From assembly GCA_945787635.1 (NCBI GenBank), contig CALZIK010000056.1, forward strand, positions 1-42,583: a stretch of 42,583 nucleotides of DNA, written 5' to 3'. Positions within the stretch are counted from its first letter, which is position 1. Each line of letters starts with the position of its first letter. Below are positions 16,400 to 42,583 of this stretch, one piece after another. Under the pieces are notes generated by a model, which saw nothing but the letters and a program-made list of their open reading frames with translations, was not told the origin of the DNA and did not search any database. The DNA is from Thermoanaerobaculia bacterium. Lineage in GTDB: Bacteria; Acidobacteriota; Thermoanaerobaculia; Multivoradales; JAHEKO01. Made by a program: the position numbers and the translations under genes.

Positions 16400-17437
16400 T
16401 CATCGGTTCGCTGGTTGCCGCCACAAGCTGGCCCGGTGGATTACGCGGCCTGTGGGGGCCGACGCATCCACGAACTCGAAGGAGAGCTCATCCGGAGATA
16501 CCTCGACGATCGCGAAGCCGAAGGCGCTCGTGGCCGAAATCACCTCGACGCCGGAGCCTGGAGGAAACGCCCAGCTTTGTCTCGCCGCATACAGGTCGCC
16601 GCCGCCGGCGCCCTGGACGATCTGATCGAAGTCCGGAGTCCGTAGATGCCCCTGGAGATGGTCGTGGCCAGCGAAGTAGACGTCGACGTCGCATCTGCGG
16701 ATCAGGCGCTCGAGCAGTGCTTGCTCGATCTCTTTGAAGGTTCCATTGGCGCGGCCGTGCCGGCCGCCCGGCGTATAGATCGGATGGTGTCCGAAGACGA
16801 GTCTCCAGCCGGGTGCGGCACACAGATGCTCGCGGGCGCGCTCGATCTGGCCGGTTTCGAGCCCCCGTGTGAGCAGGGTGGTGTCGACCGCTTGGATCGC
16901 CACCCATTCCGGCAGCTGCGGAACGGCATAGTCGAGAGCCGGCATGCGCCAGCGCTCACTCAGTTCGGAGTAGCTGATCTCGCTTTGGATCGAGCCCTTG
17001 CGCAGCCAGTCGTGGTTGCCGGCCACCATCCAGAAATCGGTTCGGCCGAACGCTCGATACGGTGCTTCGAACTGTTTCTCGAACGCACTCAGGGCGCGCT
17101 CGGCGTCCGGCCCCTCGAGACTCCGCGCGCCGGACCGGTAGATGTTGTCGCCGGTCACGAGGACGAAGTCGCACCCGCCGTCGGCGGCGCAACGTTCGTG
17201 CAGGACGTCGCCAACGGCGAGTTGCTCGGGTCCGCCGGTGCCCGAATCGCCGAGAACCGCAAAGCGCAAGCTCGTCTCGCCGCGATGGTCCGCTACCACG
17301 AGCGCGCCTGCGGGGCGAATCCGGAGCAACTCACCGACCTTCGGGCCGGTGACTCTTCGAAGCTGGATGCACGCCGCAACCAGCGAGACGACGACCAATG
17401 CGACGCAAAGTAGGAAAGTGCGCGTACGACCTACCAT
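16400..17437 (-). CDS. Metallophosphoesterase lipoprotein (calcineurin-like / purple acid phosphatase-like)
   Basis: A protein of 345 residues with all the blocks of the calcineurin-like phosphoesterase fold: 'LGDSGTGG', 'VTGDNIY', 'MVAGNHDW', '[11 protein letters not shown]' and '[12 protein letters not shown]'. These supply the Asp, Asn and His ligands of a two-metal centre that hydrolyses phosphomonoesters or diesters. The N-terminus has one hydrophobic segment ending in VAAC, a plausible lipobox, so it is likely an anchored lipoprotein facing the periplasm. The ATG at 17437 overlaps the end of the pheA-aroF fusion gene by seven bases, which argues for co-transcription with an aromatic amino acid gene although no functional link is obvious. 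The longer frame to 17743 lies wholly inside that upstream gene and is rejected. Confidence 0.87.
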
Positions 17438-19482
17438 CGCCGCCCTTGCCCCTCCACGATCGGCACAAGAGCCGCCTGGAGCCGCGCGAGGTCGTCGCCG
17501 GAGAGCGCCTGCTCGGCATCGCACAGGGCCTCCTCCGGATTTGGATGCACTTCCACGATCAGACCGTCGGCGCCGGCTGCCGCCGCAGCGAGAGCCAGTG
17601 GCGCGACCAAGCCGCGCCGACCGGCCGCGTGCGAAGGATCGACGATCACCGGTAGGTGGGTTCGCTCCCGAAGCACCGGCACCGCCGAAACATCGAGAGT
17701 GCTGCGGGTGGCGTTCTCGAAGGTACGGATGCCGCGTTCGCAAAGGATGACCTGGTGGTTGCCGCCTGCCATGACGTACTCGGCGGCCTGCAGGAACTCC
17801 GCGATCGTGGCGCTCAGACCGCGCTTCAAGAGCACCGGCCGGCGCACGGCGCCGACTTCCTTCAAGAGCTCGAAATTCTGCATGTTGCGTGCGCCGATCT
17901 GCAGAACGTCGGCCACCCGGGCGACGCGGTCCAGGTCTTCGAGGCGCAACACCTCGGTCACGATCGGCAGCCCGTACGCCTCCCGAGCCTCGGCCAGAAG
18001 CTCGAGGCCCTCGTAGCCGAGGCCCTGAAATGAATAGGGTGAGCTTCTCGGCTTGAAGGCACCGCCTCGGAGCATGCTCGCGCCGAGTCCCGCGACCATC
18101 TCAGCGGCGGCGAGTATCTGCTCCCGGCTCTCGACCGCGCAGGGACCCGCGATCATGGTGAAGGTGTCACCACCCACTTCCACGCGACCCACCCGGAGGA
18201 CGGTGCGCTGGCCAGGCGACGCGATCGCCGTCAGGTTCGGCCGGCCCGCGGCTGCGGGAATCGGCTCCGCGACCTCGGAGTCGTCGGCCGCGGCCGCGGG
18301 AGCCACCGTTTCACCCGGTGCCGCTCGCAAGTCCTCCCGCTCGACGATTGCGCGCGAGGGATAGCAGCCTAGAATCCGCAAGCTGCCGGTGCGCTGCCGG
18401 ACGCGGTTCAAGGTCTCGACCATGCGCGGATCTTCGGCGTTGGCCTCGACGTCGAGATAGAAGAGGTACTCCCAGGGCATGTCGGGCACGGGCCGGCTCT
18501 CGAGTTTGCTCAGGTTGAGACCCGCCTCCGAGAACGCGTTCAGGCACTCGGCTAGCGCGCCTTGACGGTGATCGACGGTCAAAAGGACCGAAGTCTTGGC
18601 GGGTACGCGCCCATCCACGCGCTCGGCCTCACGCCCGATCAGGACGAACCGCGTGTGGTTCTCGGAGTGATCCGCCACGCGATCGTCCAGGATCTCGAGA
18701 CCGAGCTGCCGGGCCGCCTCGGCCGAGCAGATCGCCGCCACCTGGGCGTCCTCGGATTCGGCGACCGACTCGGCGGCGGCCGCCGTGTCGTACCAGCTTT
18801 CGGCCCGAACCCCGACCAGACCGCGCAAGAACCGACCGCACTGCTGCAACGCGACCGGATGGGAGCGCACCGCGCGCAGATCGGCGACCTTCGCGCCCGG
18901 CTTCGCCACCAGGCAGTGCTCGACCCGCCAGATCTCTTCGTCCACGAGAGCCACGGGACGGTGTGCGATCTCGCGGTAGACCTCGTGGATGCTGCCGGCG
19001 ATCGTGTTCTCGATCGGCAAGAAGGCGTAGTCCGCCTCACCGGCCTCGAGCGCCTCGAGGGCGCTCTCGAAGGTCTCGTAGCCGGTTCGGGCAAGAGTCG
19101 AGTGCGGTCGGGAGGCGAAGAGCTTCTCGAGCGCCAGCTCCGAATAAGAGCCGGAAGCCCCCTGGTAGGCCACGCGAAGCGCCGGCCCGGTTCCCTCGCC
19201 CGCGGGAGCGGCCAGCCGGCGCTCCTGGTCCCGCCGAGAGTAGGCCAGAAGCTCTCGCAGAACCCTGCCGGCGAAATGCACCGAAAGCCCCAGGCTTTCC
19301 GCCTCCCGGCGCCAGAACGTGAAGACCTCGCGCTCACGGTTCGGATCCCAAAGCGGTGCCTCCCGGTTCTCGAGCTTGAAGCTCGCGATCTTGCGAACGG
19401 CCTCCATCCGCCGAGCCAAAAGGCCGAGAAGCTCGCGATCGATCTCGTCGATCGCGCTGCGGGATTGGTCGAGCTCCGCCAT
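17431..19482 (-). CDS. Fusion: chorismate mutase - prephenate dehydratase - ACT - DAHP synthase
   Basis: A protein of 683 residues that joins four modules. Residues 1-90 are an AroQ-type chorismate mutase ('[26 protein letters not shown]'). Residues 100-285 are prephenate dehydratase ('[12 protein letters not shown]', '[12 protein letters not shown]', NHTRF near 275). Residues 298-373 are an ACT domain with GALAECL and ESRP, the Phe-binding signature of PheA. After an Ala/Pro linker, residues 428-683 are a type I-beta DAHP synthase ('[10 protein letters not shown]', '[17 protein letters not shown]', 'DPSHAAGRR'). It would catalyse the first step of the shikimate pathway and also the conversion of chorismate to phenylpyruvate, with Phe feedback on both. 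The ATG at 19482 has AAGGAG six bases upstream. It is preceded by an apparent Phe attenuator. Confidence 0.93.
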
Positions 19483-19501
19483 TGGGTCTCCTTCTCTCAA
19501 C

Positions 19502-19529
19502 AAAAAAGCCCCGCCGGTCCGGCGGGGCT
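19502..19529 (-). terminator. Rho-independent terminator of the Phe attenuator
   Basis: On the minus strand a perfect 9-bp stem (19529-19521 with 19515-19507, sequence AGCCCCGCC/GGCGGGGCT) is followed at once by six T's (19507-19502). It lies 20 bases before the start of the pheA-aroF fusion gene and inside its 5' leader, so it fits an attenuator rather than the end of the upstream gene. Confidence 0.85.
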
Positions 19530-19552
19530 CGTTGCGGTCGATCGTTCCTGAC

Positions 19553-19627
19553 TTATCCGGTCGCGGCCCCGCTCTTCGGACTAGCGTCCGCAAAAAAGAA
19601 AAACGAGGAAGTGAAGGTCGCACGCAT
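19553..19627 (-). CDS. Phe-rich leader peptide of the attenuator (pheL-like)
   Basis: This is a 24-codon open frame from ATG 19627 to TAA 19555-19553. It begins MRATFTSS, then has four Phe codons in a row (TTT TTC TTT TTT at 19603-19592), and ends [12 protein letters not shown]. Five of 24 residues are Phe, comparable to the enteric pheL leader. Just after the Phe codons lies a small hairpin (CGGAC/GTCCG, 19590-19577). GCGGGGC at 19572-19566, near the end of the frame, can pair over seven bases with GCCCCGC at 19528-19522, the first arm of the terminator. A ribosome stalled at the Phe codons would leave this antiterminator segment free; one reaching the stop would cover it. No good ribosome binding site is visible, which is the weakest point. 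Confidence 0.8.
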
Positions 19628-38039: not shown

Positions 38040-38122
38040 CTCGCCGGACCTACCCGAGTCTAACCTCGAGGGTGCCCCGGTAGAGACGCGTGACACATTG
38101 GGTATCGAGTATTCTCCGGACC

Positions 38123-38821
38123 ATGCGAATCCTCGCCGGCACCAGCGGCTTCAGCTACAAGGAATGGAAGGGCGAGTTTTATCCCGAGAAGCTCAAGAAC
38201 GCCGACATGCTCGAATACTACGCTTCGAAGCTGCCGGCGGTCGAGATCAACAACACCTTCTACCGTATGCCCAAGGCCGAGGTGATCGAGAGCTGGGCCG
38301 AGAAGGTCCCCGAGGGATTCCGCTTCGTTCTCAAGGCCTCTCGGCGCATCACCCACTTCAAACGTCTCAAGGGTACCGAGGAAGAGACGGCCTACGTGGT
38401 CGAGACCGCCCGGGTTCTGGGTTCTCGGCTCGGCGCACTGCTATTTCAGCTGCCTCCGAACTTCAAGAAGGACCTCGAACGGCTCGAGGTCTTCTTGAAG
38501 ATCCTGCCGAGAGACGTTCGGGCGGCTCTCGAGTTTCGCCACGACAGCTGGTTCGACGCCGAGGTCTTCGAGGTCCTCCGCACGCACAACCGGGCTCTGT
38601 GCCTCGCCGATACCGACGAGAAATCCCCGGAGATCGTGGCGACCGCGGACTGGGGCTATCTCCGGCTGCGCCGGGCCGACTACTCCGCCAAGGCCCTGCG
38701 AGCCTGGCTCGAGACCATCGGCGAGCAGGGCTGGAGCGAGTGCTTCGTGTTCTTCAAGCACGAAGACGAGGCGGGCGGCCCGCGCATGGCCGAGAGTCTG
38801 CTCGCCCTGACTTCGACGTGA
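38123..38821 (+). CDS. DUF72-family protein
   Basis: A protein of 232 residues with the DUF72 (COG1801) pattern: 'ILAGTSGFSYKEWKGEFYPEKLKNADMLEYYASKLPAVEINNTFYRMP', 'GFRFVLKASRRITHFKRL', 'LGALLFQLPPNFKKDLERLEVFL' and 'RAALEFRHDSWFDAEVFEVLRTHNRALCLAD', ending 'ECFVFFKHEDEAGGPRMAESLL'. It is a TIM-barrel family of unknown activity. The ATG at 38123 begins the first strand; an earlier start at 38090 is less likely. It starts 84 bases from the divergent cytochrome gene and converges on the methyltransferase gene, with a perfect stem-loop between. Confidence 0.9.
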   Translation: MRILAGTSGFSYKEWKGEFYPEKLKNADMLEYYASKLPAVEINNTFYRMPKAEVIESWAEKVPEGFRFVLKASRRITHFKRLKGTEEETAYVVETARVLGSRLGALLFQLPPNFKKDLERLEVFLKILPRDVRAALEFRHDSWFDAEVFEVLRTHNRALCLADTDEKSPEIVATADWGYLRLRRADYSAKALRAWLETIGEQGWSECFVFFKHEDEAGGPRMAESLLALTST

Positions 38822-38823
38822 GT

Positions 38824-38852
38824 CCGGCCCGCGCTTTTTCTAAGCGGGCCGG
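38824..38852. terminator. Stem-loop between convergent genes
   Basis: CCGGCCCGC (38824-38832) pairs perfectly with GCGGGCCGG (38844-38852) around an 11-base loop containing five T's and the methyltransferase stop codon. It probably ends both transcripts, though no T-run follows the stem. Confidence 0.5.
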
Positions 38853-39598
38853 CGCAGCAAGTGATAGAGGTTGAGGCGGCCCGACTCACCGTCCGCAAGG
38901 AAGCTCTCGACCTTTCGCAAACCGACCGAGCCGACCAGCTCTGCGGCCTCGGCAGGCCCGGCGTGATGGCAGTAGCGCACGGCGCCGGCGTCGCCCCAGC
39001 CGAGGAGATGATCGCCGGGCTCGAGGTCGCCGGTATCCAGACCCGCGCAAGCGGGTTGGGTGTCCCAGGACTCAAACCGGCTTCGAAAGCGCTGCAGCTC
39101 GCCGAACTGCCAGAACGAAAGCCCCAGAAGCCCACCCGGCCGAAGTCGCCTGGCGGCGCTCGAGAGCAGCTGCCGCCGCCGCTCGAGCGACGGCACATGA
39201 TGCAGCAGACCGAAAGCGAGAATCAGGTCGAAGCGGGCGTGCAAGGCGAGCTCGGCCAGCGGCTCCCGCAGCAGGTCCGCTGCCGCCAAGTGCGCCCGAG
39301 CGGTCAGCGAACCCTCCAGCGTGCGCCTGGCCTCGCCAACCAGGGGAACCGAACGATCGAGGCCGAGGTACGAGATCTCGGTGCCGAAAGCCCTGACCAG
39401 CTCGGGCAGCAGGCGGCCGTTGCCGCAACCGAGATCTAAAATCGATACTCTCGGCGAGCGGAGGCTCGAATCGGCCAGCCCGAAGAGCTTCCGCCAGCCG
39501 GTCCAGGGTCGCTTGCGAGTACGACTGAACTCCGAGGCGCGTTCGCGATAGAAATCCCGGTTGATCCGATCAAGAACCTCTACGGTAGACGCCTTCAT
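38840..39598 (-). CDS. Trm9/ALKBH8-like class I SAM methyltransferase (candidate tRNA wobble-uridine methyltransferase)
   Basis: A protein of 252 residues. The N-terminus 'INRDFYRERASEFSRTRKRPWTGWRKL' matches the 'FSxTRxxPW' segment that marks Trm9 and the methyltransferase domain of ALKBH8. The SAM fold follows with 'ILDLGCGNGRLLPEL', 'YLGLDRS', 'AADLLREPLAEL', 'FDLILAFGLLHHVPSLERRRQLL' and 'RLRPGGLLGLSFW'; the His-His and the RRxxLL helix agree with Trm9. Trm9 methylates 5-carboxymethyluridine at tRNA position 34 to mcm5U, acting on a product of Elp3. Here the gene is divergent from elp3 with five bases between start codons, which strongly supports a joint role, though activity in bacteria is inference. 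The ATG at 39598 is preferred to a TTG one codon upstream. Confidence 0.78.
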   Translation of the reverse strand: MKASTVEVLDRINRDFYRERASEFSRTRKRPWTGWRKLFGLADSSLRSPRVSILDLGCGNGRLLPELVRAFGTEISYLGLDRSVPLVGEARRTLEGSLTARAHLAAADLLREPLAELALHARFDLILAFGLLHHVPSLERRRQLLSSAARRLRPGGLLGLSFWQFGELQRFRSRFESWDTQPACAGLDTGDLEPGDHLLGWGDAGAVRYCHHAGPAEAAELVGSVGLRKVESFLADGESGRLNLYHLLRRPA

Positions 39599-39603
39599 CA
39601 ATC

Positions 39604-41373
39604 ATGCCGACCTTCCGACCGTTCGAGCCCGAAAGCCACGAGCGCGAGCTTATCTCCATTCTCGGAGAGCTCGCGGAGCTCGAGACCTTCGGAGCGCTGG
39701 AGCTCCAGAGGGTTCTACGCCGGTATCCCAAGAACGGGCGGGGCCTGTTCTCGAAGAGCGAGCTGGTCCGAGGCTTCCGACGATTCCGCAACCGGCTGGG
39801 TCCTTCCTTGGATGGCGATGCCCTCCTCGAGCGCCTGCGCATGAAGCCGGTGCGAACCATGAGCGGCGTCGCACCGGTCACCATCTTGACCAAGCCCTTC
39901 CCGTGCCCGGGGCGTTGCATCTTCTGCCCGAGCGACGTTCGCATGCCGAAGAGCTATCTCTCGGACGAGCCCGGTGCCCAGCGCGCCGCACAGCATCAGT
40001 TCGATCCGTATCTTCAGACTCTCTCGCGGCTCCACGCCTACCACAACAACGGCCATCGAACCGACAAGGTCGAGTTGATCATCCTGGGAGGCACCTGGTC
40101 CTCATATCCGGAGGCCTACCAGATCTGGTTCGTCAAGCGCTGCTTCGACGCGATGAACGACTTTTCCGGCGAGAGCGCCGCGCCACTGGCTCCGACCGAA
40201 CCGGTGATCGACTTTCGCCTCTTGGAGGAGCGCATCGACGGGCAGTCGATCGATCGCAGCTACAACCAGGTCGTCTCGGACTTCGCCGAGGGCGCGGTGA
40301 TCGACCACGAGACCGCAACCTGGAGCAAGCTCGAAGAGCTTCAACGGGTCAACGAGGGAGTCCGGACGCGGTGCGTCGGACTGGTCGTCGAAACCCGACC
40401 CGATCACCTGACGCTCGACGAAGCCCTGCGCATGCGCCGGCTCGGGGCCACCAAGGTCCAGATCGGCTATCAGAGCCTCTCGGACCGGGTTCTCGCTCTC
40501 AACAAGCGGGGACACGACGTCGCGGCTACGCGCGAGGCGATGAGAGTTCTGCGCAGGGTCGGCTTCAAGATTCACGCCCACTGGATGCCCAATCTCTACG
40601 GCTCCGACCCGGCCGCCGACCTGCTCGACTACGAGCGCATCTTCGAGGATCAGGACCTGCGTCCCGACGAGCTCAAGATCTACCCGTGCAGCTTGATCGA
40701 GAGCGCCGAGCTGATGGCCTTCTACAAGCGCGGCGAATGGCGCCCTTACGAGCACGACGAGCTGCTCCGAGTGCTCACCCGGTGCATGCATCGCACACCC
40801 CGGTACTGCCGCTTGACCCGGGTGATCCGAGACATCCCGGGCACCGACATCGTCGACGGCAACCGCGTCACCAACTTCCGGGAGCTGGCCGAGCGAGAAC
40901 TGCAACAACTGGGCATGGCCAGCGCCGAGATCCGCGCGAGGGAGATTCGAGATCTGGAGATCGTAAGCTCCGACCTTAGCCTCGAGACGACCGAATACGA
41001 CACCGCTATCGGCCGCGAGCAGTTTCTCGAGTTCGTGACTGCCGAAGACCGGATCGCGGGCTTTTTGCGGCTGAGCTTGCCGGCCGAACCGGTCCCGATA
41101 CCGGAGATTCGCGACTCCGCGATGATCCGGGAGGTCCACGTCTACGGCGGGCTGGTCGGCCTCGGCAGGCGCCGGCAGGGACTCCCCCAGCATCTCGGCC
41201 TCGGACGACGACTGGTCGCGGAAGCCGAGCGCCGCGCGGCCGCGGCCGGCTATCCGAACCTGGCGGTTATCTCGTCGGTCGGCACGCGTGAGTACTACCG
41301 GCGACTCGGCTTCCAGGACGGGTCGCTCTATCAGACCAAGCCGCTCGCCGCCGCGCTCAGATCGGAGGGTTAG
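39604..41373 (+). CDS. elp3: Elp3-type radical SAM / GNAT tRNA uridine-34 modification enzyme
   Basis: A protein of 589 residues. It has a radical-SAM domain with the CxxxCxxC cluster motif Cys101, Cys105, Cys108 ('PFPCPGRCIFCPSD'), preceded by 'VRTMSGVAPVTILTKP' and followed by 'LILGGTWSSYP', 'VGLVVETRPDHLTLDEALRMRRLGATKVQIGYQSLSD', and 'KIHAHWMPNLYGSDP'. The C-terminal 150 residues form a GNAT acetyltransferase ('IREVHVYGGLVGLGR', 'VISSVGTREYYRRLGF'). Elp3 makes carboxymethyl uridine at the wobble position from acetyl-CoA and SAM. Archaeal and bacterial Elp3 act without the rest of the eukaryotic Elongator. The ATG at 39604 is followed at once by family sequence; no ribosome binding site is seen and the message may be nearly leaderless. 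It is divergent from the Trm9-like gene. Confidence 0.92.
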   Translation: MPTFRPFEPESHERELISILGELAELETFGALELQRVLRRYPKNGRGLFSKSELVRGFRRFRNRLGPSLDGDALLERLRMKPVRTMSGVAPVTILTKPFPCPGRCIFCPSDVRMPKSYLSDEPGAQRAAQHQFDPYLQTLSRLHAYHNNGHRTDKVELIILGGTWSSYPEAYQIWFVKRCFDAMNDFSGESAAPLAPTEPVIDFRLLEERIDGQSIDRSYNQVVSDFAEGAVIDHETATWSKLEELQRVNEGVRTRCVGLVVETRPDHLTLDEALRMRRLGATKVQIGYQSLSDRVLALNKRGHDVAATREAMRVLRRVGFKIHAHWMPNLYGSDPAADLLDYERIFEDQDLRPDELKIYPCSLIESAELMAFYKRGEWRPYEHDELLRVLTRCMHRTPRYCRLTRVIRDIPGTDIVDGNRVTNFRELAERELQQLGMASAEIRAREIRDLEIVSSDLSLETTEYDTAIGREQFLEFVTAEDRIAGFLRLSLPAEPVPIPEIRDSAMIREVHVYGGLVGLGRRRQGLPQHLGLGRRLVAEAERRAAAAGYPNLAVISSVGTREYYRRLGFQDGSLYQTKPLAAALRSEG

Positions 41374-41378
41374 CTCAC

Positions 41379-42583
41379 CTATTCGGCGATCTCTTCGAGG
41401 ATCTTCCAGAGCTCGCCTTCTCGCACGAGCTCGAGCTTTTTGTTGACTTTGTCTCGAAAGGTATTCGATCGGTACTCCTGCGCGAAGGTGATCGCCGCCC
41501 GATTCGGTCCCGCGATTCGGGTCTGGAAACCCGAGAGCGCGACCTCAATGAACTCCGGCGCAGTCAGACGCTGTCGGCGCAGAGCTTCCCATTCGCTCCG
41601 GTTTATTCCCCCGGGCGGAACGAAACTCTGAGCGTAGAAGCTCAGATAGTCGTCTGCGCGCCGACCGGACCAGGCTCGAGCCCAGGCGCGGGCGAAGGCC
41701 ACGAGGTCGCCCGGAACCGGAGGCACCCCACTCACCTCGATCTCCGAATCGGCGCGGGGAATCGCGGGTAGATCCGCAGACTCGACGGCGGTCTCTTCCG
41801 GAGGGACCGGACGCGGCGACCGCACCGGCACTTCCGCCGGTATCGGCAGCGCGCTCACGGCGCTCTCCAGTTCGGTCACCCGCGTCTCGAGCTCTCGGTT
41901 CGAATCCTCGCTCTCAGCCAGCGCAGCACGCGCTTTCGTCAGATCGTCATCGAGCCGCGCCGCCATCGAGGCCCTCGCGCTGGCACGCTCCCACTCGGCA
42001 CGCCAGCTCTGCGTTTCCTTCTCCAGCTCGCTCACCCGGCTCGCGAGGTCGCGATTGGCAGCCTCGCGCTGGGAGAGCGCCGCGCGCGCGCGCGCCAACT
42101 CGTCTTCGAGCTCGGACAGCGTGTTGGTCATCACAGCGGCCTGCTTTTTCTCGGTGGCCGAGCTTTCCGCGATCGTTTCCAGCTCGGTCACCCGCGCCTC
42201 GAGGTCTCGGTTCGCCGTCTCACTCGAAACAAGCGAGGCCCGCGCCTGGGCCAGATCCTCTTCGAGCCCGGATAGCGTCTCGGCCATCGCCGCACCGCGC
42301 TCTTTCTCGGCCTCCAGGCTCGCCGAGGCTGTCTCCAGCTCGGCCACCCGGGACTCGAGGCCACGGTTCGCTGTCTCACTCGAAGCAAGCGAGCCCCGCG
42401 CCCTGGCCAGCTCGGCTTCGAGCCCGGATAGCGTCTCGGCCATCGCGGCACCGCGCTCTTTCTCGGCCTCCAGGCTCGCCGAGGCTGTCTCCAGCTCGGC
42501 CACCCGGGACTCGAGGTCTCGGTTCGCCGTCTCACTCGAAGCAAGCGAGCCCCGCGCCTGGGCCAGCTCGGCTTCGAGCCCGG
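41379..42583 (-). CDS. Coiled-coil protein with 52-residue repeats and C-terminal SnoaL/Cds6-like domain, 5' end beyond window
   Basis: At least 400 residues in frame, open to the window edge. From residue 1 of the visible part there are heptad-rich 52-residue repeats, each starting 'V(A/T/S)ELE' and ending near 'ANR(D/G)LE(S/A)R', at least four full units. Upstream units are nearly identical and downstream ones more diverged. After a Pro/Glu-rich linker comes a C-terminal domain 'LVAFARAWARAWSGRRADDYLSFYAQSFVPPGGINRSEWEALRRQRL', resembling the NTF2/SnoaL-type 'Cds6' domain often found at the end of large periplasmic or membrane-anchored coiled-coil proteins. Function is not known; the N-terminus is missing, so localisation cannot be judged. 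It ends five bases from the convergent elp3 stop, with no terminator between. Confidence 0.82.
   Translation of the reverse strand, partial: GLEAELAQARGSLASSETANRDLESRVAELETASASLEAEKERGAAMAETLSGLEAELARARGSLASSETANRGLESRVAELETASASLEAEKERGAAMAETLSGLEEDLAQARASLVSSETANRDLEARVTELETIAESSATEKKQAAVMTNTLSELEDELARARAALSQREAANRDLASRVSELEKETQSWRAEWERASARASMAARLDDDLTKARAALAESEDSNRELETRVTELESAVSALPIPAEVPVRSPRPVPPEETAVESADLPAIPRADSEIEVSGVPPVPGDLVAFARAWARAWSGRRADDYLSFYAQSFVPPGGINRSEWEALRRQRLTAPEFIEVALSGFQTRIAGPNRAAITFAQEYRSNTFRDKVNKKLELVREGELWKILEEIAE
42188..42583. repeat. 156-bp coding tandem repeat
   Basis: Successive units are 156 bases long (52 codons); for example 42302-42360 is repeated at 42458-42516 with identical bases. 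Close identity at the DNA level between adjacent units implies recent duplication or ongoing slippage. More units probably continue beyond the window edge. Confidence 0.8.

Follow-up and report, generated by a model that had tools for sequence, protein, structure and literature searches.

A Trm9-like methyltransferase gene head-to-head with elp3: a probable bacterial counterpart of the archaeal and eukaryotic wobble-uridine pathway

The closest described relatives of the system reported here are the eukaryotic Trm9-Trm112 complex and the corresponding ALKBH8 domain, associated with 5-methoxycarbonylmethyluridine at the tRNA wobble position (mcm5U34; structure 5cm2), and the Elp3 and Trm9 homologues of archaea. 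Archaeal Elp3 is known in print to form 5-carboxymethyluridine (cm5U34) on tRNA, and in Sulfolobus solfataricus it occurs without the other Elongator subunits and is clustered with a Trm9 homologue (a passage of PMC2584109). mcm5U34 is documented in Haloferax volcanii, according to a passage of PMC7663514, and the archaeal distribution of the pair in print is limited, in a passage of PMC5372719, to Sulfolobales and Halobacteriales. Bacterial MnmE and MnmG also act on C5 of U34, yet by a different chemistry that leads to 5-carboxymethylaminomethyluridine (cmnm5U34), and a passage of the review PMC7663514 regards xcm5U34 as unproven in bacteria. Although Elp3 and Trm9 are already known to be linked in archaea (PMC2584109), no description of a bacterial pair was found in the literature searched (titles, beginnings of abstracts and passages, with few subscription papers covered). 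Here we describe such a pair at positions 38840-41373 of contig CALZIK010000056.1 of a Thermoanaerobaculia bacterium of the order Multivoradales (hereafter the host order), the window being the whole analysed stretch of 42,583 nucleotides.

The region consists of two divergent genes, the coordinates of both of which were confirmed: a gene for a Trm9-like class I S-adenosylmethionine (SAM)-dependent methyltransferase (38840..39598, minus strand; 252 aa, ATG start at 39598, stop at 38840) and elp3, encoding a radical SAM and GNAT-domain tRNA U34 carboxymethylation enzyme (39604..41373, plus strand; 589 aa). The first-pass annotation of this DNA had taken them for a possible bacterial mcm5U34 pathway, an interpretation that is supported in part and largely holds. 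It is likely that the two genes represent a minimal bacterial version of the archaeal and eukaryotic wobble-uridine pathway, replacing MnmE/MnmG. Bacterial Elp3 would thereby gain a likely second enzyme, one thought to be missing from bacteria.

The window Elp3 is complete and keeps its catalytic residues. It scores 474.3 bits against TIGR01211, 124 bits above the cut-off of 350, and the three cysteines (C101, C105 and C108) of its Fe-S cluster motif CPGRCIFC (39904..39927, plus strand; residues 101-108) are all conserved. Also, K77, K193, E386 and Y441 of the acetyl-CoA/KAT pocket of Dehalococcoides mccartyi Elp3 (residue list from a passage of PMC6367351) correspond to K155, K322, E510 and Y564 of the window protein.

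The methyltransferase, for which the AlphaFold2 (AF2) model has a predicted local distance difference test score (pLDDT) of 89.8, shares with eukaryotic Trm9 the class I fold, the TR-xx-PW N-terminal segment, an HH in the region of the active site, a DxLLxW...RYxH lid and the presumed partnership with Elp3-made cm5U; it differs in being bacterial, in having C for Y in the lid and in that its gene is tied to elp3. The FSxTRxxPW segment of Trm9, reported by the first-pass annotation, is literally present as FSRTRKRPW (39503..39529, minus strand; residues 24-32) and aligns with the TR of Yarrowia Trm9. It is followed on the same strand by SAM-binding motif I, DLGCGNG (39416..39436; residues 55-61), by the lid motif LEPGDHLLGWGDAGAVRYCH (38966..39025; residues 192-211), which aligns with DVMVPW...YRYYH of Yarrowia Trm9, and by N243 (38870..38872), the candidate equivalent of yeast Trm9 N271. 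Among 15 aligned members from the host order R28, H133, H134, R208, H211 and N243 are invariant and the lid block reads LExGDxLLxW...RYCH; in the wider family R28 and H134 are invariant in 37/37 aligned members, and H133, R208, Y209 and H211 are conserved in at least 90%. Mutation of five residues (R29, H115, R241, Y243 and N271) is stated to cripple yeast Trm9 (a passage of PMC5372719), and R28, H133/H134, R208 and N243 are plausible equivalents of R29, H115, R241 and N271, the yeast numbering being mapped through the Yarrowia alignment and by spacing, and thus partly inferred, with N271 lying beyond the aligned Yarrowia stretch.

Co-occurrence of the two genes was surveyed across 59 host-order genomes (methyltransferase family at E<=1e-30, Elp3 at E<=1e-20). 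Elp3 was detected in 36/59 and the methyltransferase family in 32/59, all 32 of which also carry Elp3, so that the family is present in 32/36 genomes with Elp3 versus 0/23 without it (Fisher 1.2e-12). In three of the Elp3 genomes without methyltransferase (G006, G010 and G014) Elp3 is cut by, or starts at, the end of a contig. Linked pairs (within ~3.2 kb) occur in 22/32 genomes and are divergent in 22/22, while the remaining 10/32 hold both genes on other contigs or far apart, some of them at contig edges. In one pair-bearing genome, G007, the intact methyltransferase gene lies on another contig. A decayed methyltransferase remnant (L178:5637-5837, minus strand) still stands head-to-head with elp3 in that genome.

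The same pattern is found in Chloroflexota. Elp3 is present in 27 of 151 genomes and the methyltransferase family, at the same cut-off of E<=1e-30, in exactly these 27 and in 0/124 others (Fisher 1.9e-30). The pairs are head-to-head in 24/27, on the same strand ~5 kb apart in one (G061) and on different contigs in two. This cut-off excluded four weak matches (G328, G364, G380 and G392; 9e-26 to 1e-27, most of them partial); MnmG is present in three of these genomes and Elp3 in none. A scan of named genomes kept 80 loci, 52 of which (L063-L113 and L127) were treated as family, most of the others matching the SAM-binding core alone. The family recurs there in Chloroflexota, Patescibacteria, Fermentibacteria, Ignavibacteriales and deltaproteobacteria, and matches weakly in two archaeal contigs; a peculiarity confined to the host was therefore rejected. 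Elp3 lies on 41/52 of these loci, head-to-head in 40/41, and several of the 11 loci without it end near the methyltransferase gene. Genome completeness is not given for the Chloroflexota and named genomes, where single absences may be gaps, and, as the genomes are related, all Fisher values suggest more independent events than there were. Nonetheless, the pattern, and with it the distribution of MnmG described below, is shown by two separate groups, the host order and Chloroflexota, and by two divergent methyltransferase subtypes, the long type of the window and a Dehalococcoidia type. The family thus tracks Elp3, contrary to the absence of co-occurrence that the first-pass annotation had named as grounds for discarding its proposal, and the recurrence of both arrangement and co-occurrence in the host order, Chloroflexota, Patescibacteria and others argues against chance.

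The Dehalococcoidia-type pair includes an Elp3 of known structure. The Elp3 of locus L156 is letter-for-letter the solved D. mccartyi protein (5l7j; 459/459 residues, as printed in the alignment), and a gene for a Trm9-like methyltransferase (LVPW...RYY-LY...RN) lies 43 bp from it, head-to-head. The crystallised Elp3 thus also has a Trm9-like neighbour, resembling the window in both respects, although its methyltransferase is of the second subtype and its Elp3 is without the N-terminal extension of the window protein. A profile of nine Dehalococcoidia-type proteins places Trm9 at the top of the PDB (1.8e-20), tied with 1ve3 (2e-20); the Trm9 match runs through the lid and that of 1ve3 does not. 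Searched alone, a single protein of this type has Trm9 in seventh place. D. mccartyi is a cultured organism with the pair and, if the proposed role is true, a long-studied crystal-structure Elp3 has an overlooked partner gene alongside.

The distribution of MnmE and MnmG complements that of the pair. Each exceeds its cut-off in 0/59 genomes of the host order and in 9/14 control genomes. Of the sub-cut-off matches in the host order, nearly all those to TIGR00136 are confined to a stretch near 290-414 and those listed for TIGR00450 to the G-domain region; they are taken for unrelated flavoproteins and GTPases of the Der/Era type. In a sample of 199 genomes of the host phylum MnmG (E<=1e-60) was found in 169, including 9/9 genomes from other orders of the class versus 0/11 from the host order, and the methyltransferase family (E<=1e-25) in 10/199, all of the host order. 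Among Chloroflexota MnmG occurs in 68/151 genomes, in 0/27 with the pair versus 68/124 without it (Fisher 1.0e-8), 56 genomes having neither; among named genomes with the family it occurs in 1/50 (values being given for 50 of the 52 loci). Mutual exclusion of the pair and MnmG is therefore seen in two taxonomic samples. The first-pass annotation had left a choice between a second system alongside MnmE/MnmG and a replacement. The former was rejected, since neither protein exceeds its cut-off in the genome or the order, and, both being gone from the whole order, the pair looks like a replacement as judged by gene content. Within the host order MnmG is lost more widely than the pair is found, and its loss may therefore predate the pair. 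Five families of the order (f2, f5, f7, f8 and f9) have neither the pair nor MnmG, their genomes (for instance G018, listed as 100% complete) being without MnmE, MnmG and Elp3 alike; either U34 carries no xm5 group there or a further route exists.

The affiliation of the methyltransferase was addressed by profile searches of the PDB (177635 sequences) with alignments of the host order (A1), of the window long-type clade (A3) and of the whole family (A2, which includes the two archaeal rows). Trm9 (5cm2_Z, Yarrowia) is the best match of all three. Profile A1 gives 1.5e-12 with generic enzymes in a near tie at 3e-11 and a core-only alignment, A3 gives 5.1e-18 with the next match at 6.3e-14, and A2 gives a domain E value of 4.2e-28, the best domain of the next match being at 1e-13. 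The A2 and A3 alignments to Trm9 extend through the C-terminal lid, whereas most other matches end at about residue 160. Annotation libraries are less specific: Pfam matches are generic (Methyltransf_11/12/23/25), no Pfam or NCBIfam entry names the protein, and NCBIfam scores fall far below every equivalog cut-off. A strict lid pattern is present in 28/41 family rows (1/7 among the Dehalococcoidia rows) and in 0/12 outgroup rows, and is no classifier; another motif pattern (M1) was too loose, since it also matched UbiG. In a 53-row tree with CmoA, CmoM, UbiG, BioC and generic methyltransferases, a clade of the family with Trm9 is acceptable, with a p value of 0.517 in the approximately unbiased test (p-AU), and the CmoM-like grouping against which the first-pass annotation had cautioned did not occur, though the test does not reject it. 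The Trm9-like identity it proposed is supported as to the best solved relative by profile, with an alignment reaching through the lid; the fold does not single out Trm9.

Several observations weigh against a Trm9-type role of the methyltransferase alongside Elp3. Fold comparison is unable to tell class I methyltransferases apart: with the window model, Foldseek puts Trm9 at rank 6 in a near tie among such enzymes, VIA-align is led by METTL6 (Z 20.6), with NTMT1 also near the head and CmoM fourth (Z 19.7), and Trm9 is not among its best 50 rows (with a Dehalococcoidia-type model Trm9 is at Foldseek rank 5). The tree, in whose deep part long branches meet, does not reject placing the bacterial family with CmoM either (p-AU 0.248). 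Yeast Trm9 Y243, important for activity (a passage of PMC5372719), is by spacing C210 in the window protein, a single position that alone is not diagnostic; it is Y in many Patescibacteria and most Dehalococcoidia-type rows, and C, V or others elsewhere in the family. The equivalent of N271 is not N in several Anaerolineales. One genome of the host order, G022, is a true exception to the co-occurrence, as it has Elp3 but no methyltransferase even with 10 kb of sequence available upstream, and a metagenome-assembled genome of Ignavibacteriales carries both the family and MnmG. Finally, Trm112 (PF03966), needed by eukaryotic Trm9, is present in 57/59 genomes of the order with or without the pair, and so gives no co-occurrence signal, and it was not found in the pair-bearing G007 (91% complete), an absence that hints, weakly, that it may be dispensable. 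Given the Y243 mismatch and the ambiguity of fold and tree, the protein is called Trm9-like rather than filed as Trm9, and the functional claim rests on genome context.

The fold and tree results bear on the possibility that the methyltransferase is CmoM-like and esterifies uridine 5-oxyacetic acid (cmo5U34) of the CmoA/CmoB route, and is linked to Elp3 indirectly, in that both work on wobble uridines. CmoM of Escherichia coli does esterify a wobble-uridine carboxylate, on cmo5U, with a similar fold, and besides its structural rank and the tree grouping this explanation can draw on the DUF72 gene next to the methyltransferase, a distant relative of which, yecE, lies beside yecN-cmoA-cmoB in E. 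coli. It is nevertheless quite improbable, as the methyltransferase is present nearly one-to-one with Elp3, the strict Trm9-type lid pattern is absent from E. coli CmoM, CmoA, UbiG and BioC, and the A3 profile matches CmoM (3.5e-10) far more weakly than Trm9. We give similarly little chance to an enzyme that takes the Elp3 product or tRNA as its substrate with an outcome other than mcm5U, such as a step towards 5-carbamoylmethyluridine (ncm5U) or methylation of another tRNA position; the departure of the window clade at the Y243 position would fit such an outcome, whereas an RYY or RFY lid is kept by many Patescibacteria and by the Dehalococcoidia-type members, in which the genes are linked in the same way, so that a Trm9-type site looks ancestral there. 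Least credible is a linkage devoid of function, in which descent and transfer carried the two genes along together and the role of the methyltransferase is unrelated, since, for all that its fold and Pfam matches are generic and the libraries give it no name, both genes are kept in the 10/32 host-order genomes where they are not seen together (some at contig edges), two divergent subtypes both stand head-to-head with Elp3, and the methyltransferase is missing from all genomes without Elp3 (23/23 and 124/124).

The pair, then, most likely makes mcm5U34. Elp3, to judge from its conserved catalytic residues, would form cm5U34 on tRNA from acetyl-CoA by radical SAM chemistry, and the Trm9-like enzyme would esterify the cm5U34 carboxylate with SAM to give mcm5U34, a step we infer from homology, from the lid and active-site residues and from co-occurrence; thiolation by another enzyme may follow. 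In the host order and in pair-bearing Chloroflexota the pair would take the place of MnmE/MnmG. We are evenly divided over a broader reading, namely that a compact Elp3-Trm9 cassette, horizontally spread, supplanted MnmE/MnmG across entire bacterial lineages (many Patescibacteria, a part of the Chloroflexota with Dehalococcoides among them, and much of one order in the host phylum), giving mcm5(s2)U34 of the archaeal and eukaryotic type with no other Elongator subunits and perhaps no Trm112, its expression tied by the abutting or overlapping head-to-head starts. If true, xm5U34 chemistry would be interchangeable between domains of life.

The start region itself is compact. The first-pass annotation correctly placed the methyltransferase gene divergent from elp3, the start codons being 5 bp apart (39599..39603), as they also are in the two congeners, L004 and L005; in several distant lineages (L073, L094, L096, L099 and L103) they overlap as CATG (gap -2). 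An in-frame TTG at 39601 was rejected as start of the methyltransferase, as the N-termini of its homologues favour the ATG at 39598, where the conserved N-terminus begins in the host-order alignment. With predicted starts that abut or overlap, promoters or leaders must fall inside the opposite gene, and the shared head-to-head start region probably keeps both genes together and co-expressed.

On its other side the methyltransferase gene is abutted by the convergent DUF72 (PF01904) gene (38090..38821, plus strand), a counterpart of which (63-76% identity) also neighbours the methyltransferase on the same fragment in L004, L005 and L011. Given that yecE adjoins yecN-cmoA-cmoB, DUF72 may belong with the wobble-uridine genes, and the window DUF72 is a candidate for a role in the pathway. 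Downstream of elp3 and convergent with it, a gene at 41379-42583 (minus strand), cut by the window end, encodes a protein of coiled-coil repeats with an NTF2-like domain of Cds6 type at its C-terminus. Elsewhere in the window, 17434-19623 (minus strand) encodes a 730-residue protein in which chorismate mutase, prephenate dehydratase and 3-deoxy-D-arabino-heptulosonate 7-phosphate (DAHP) synthase domains are fused.

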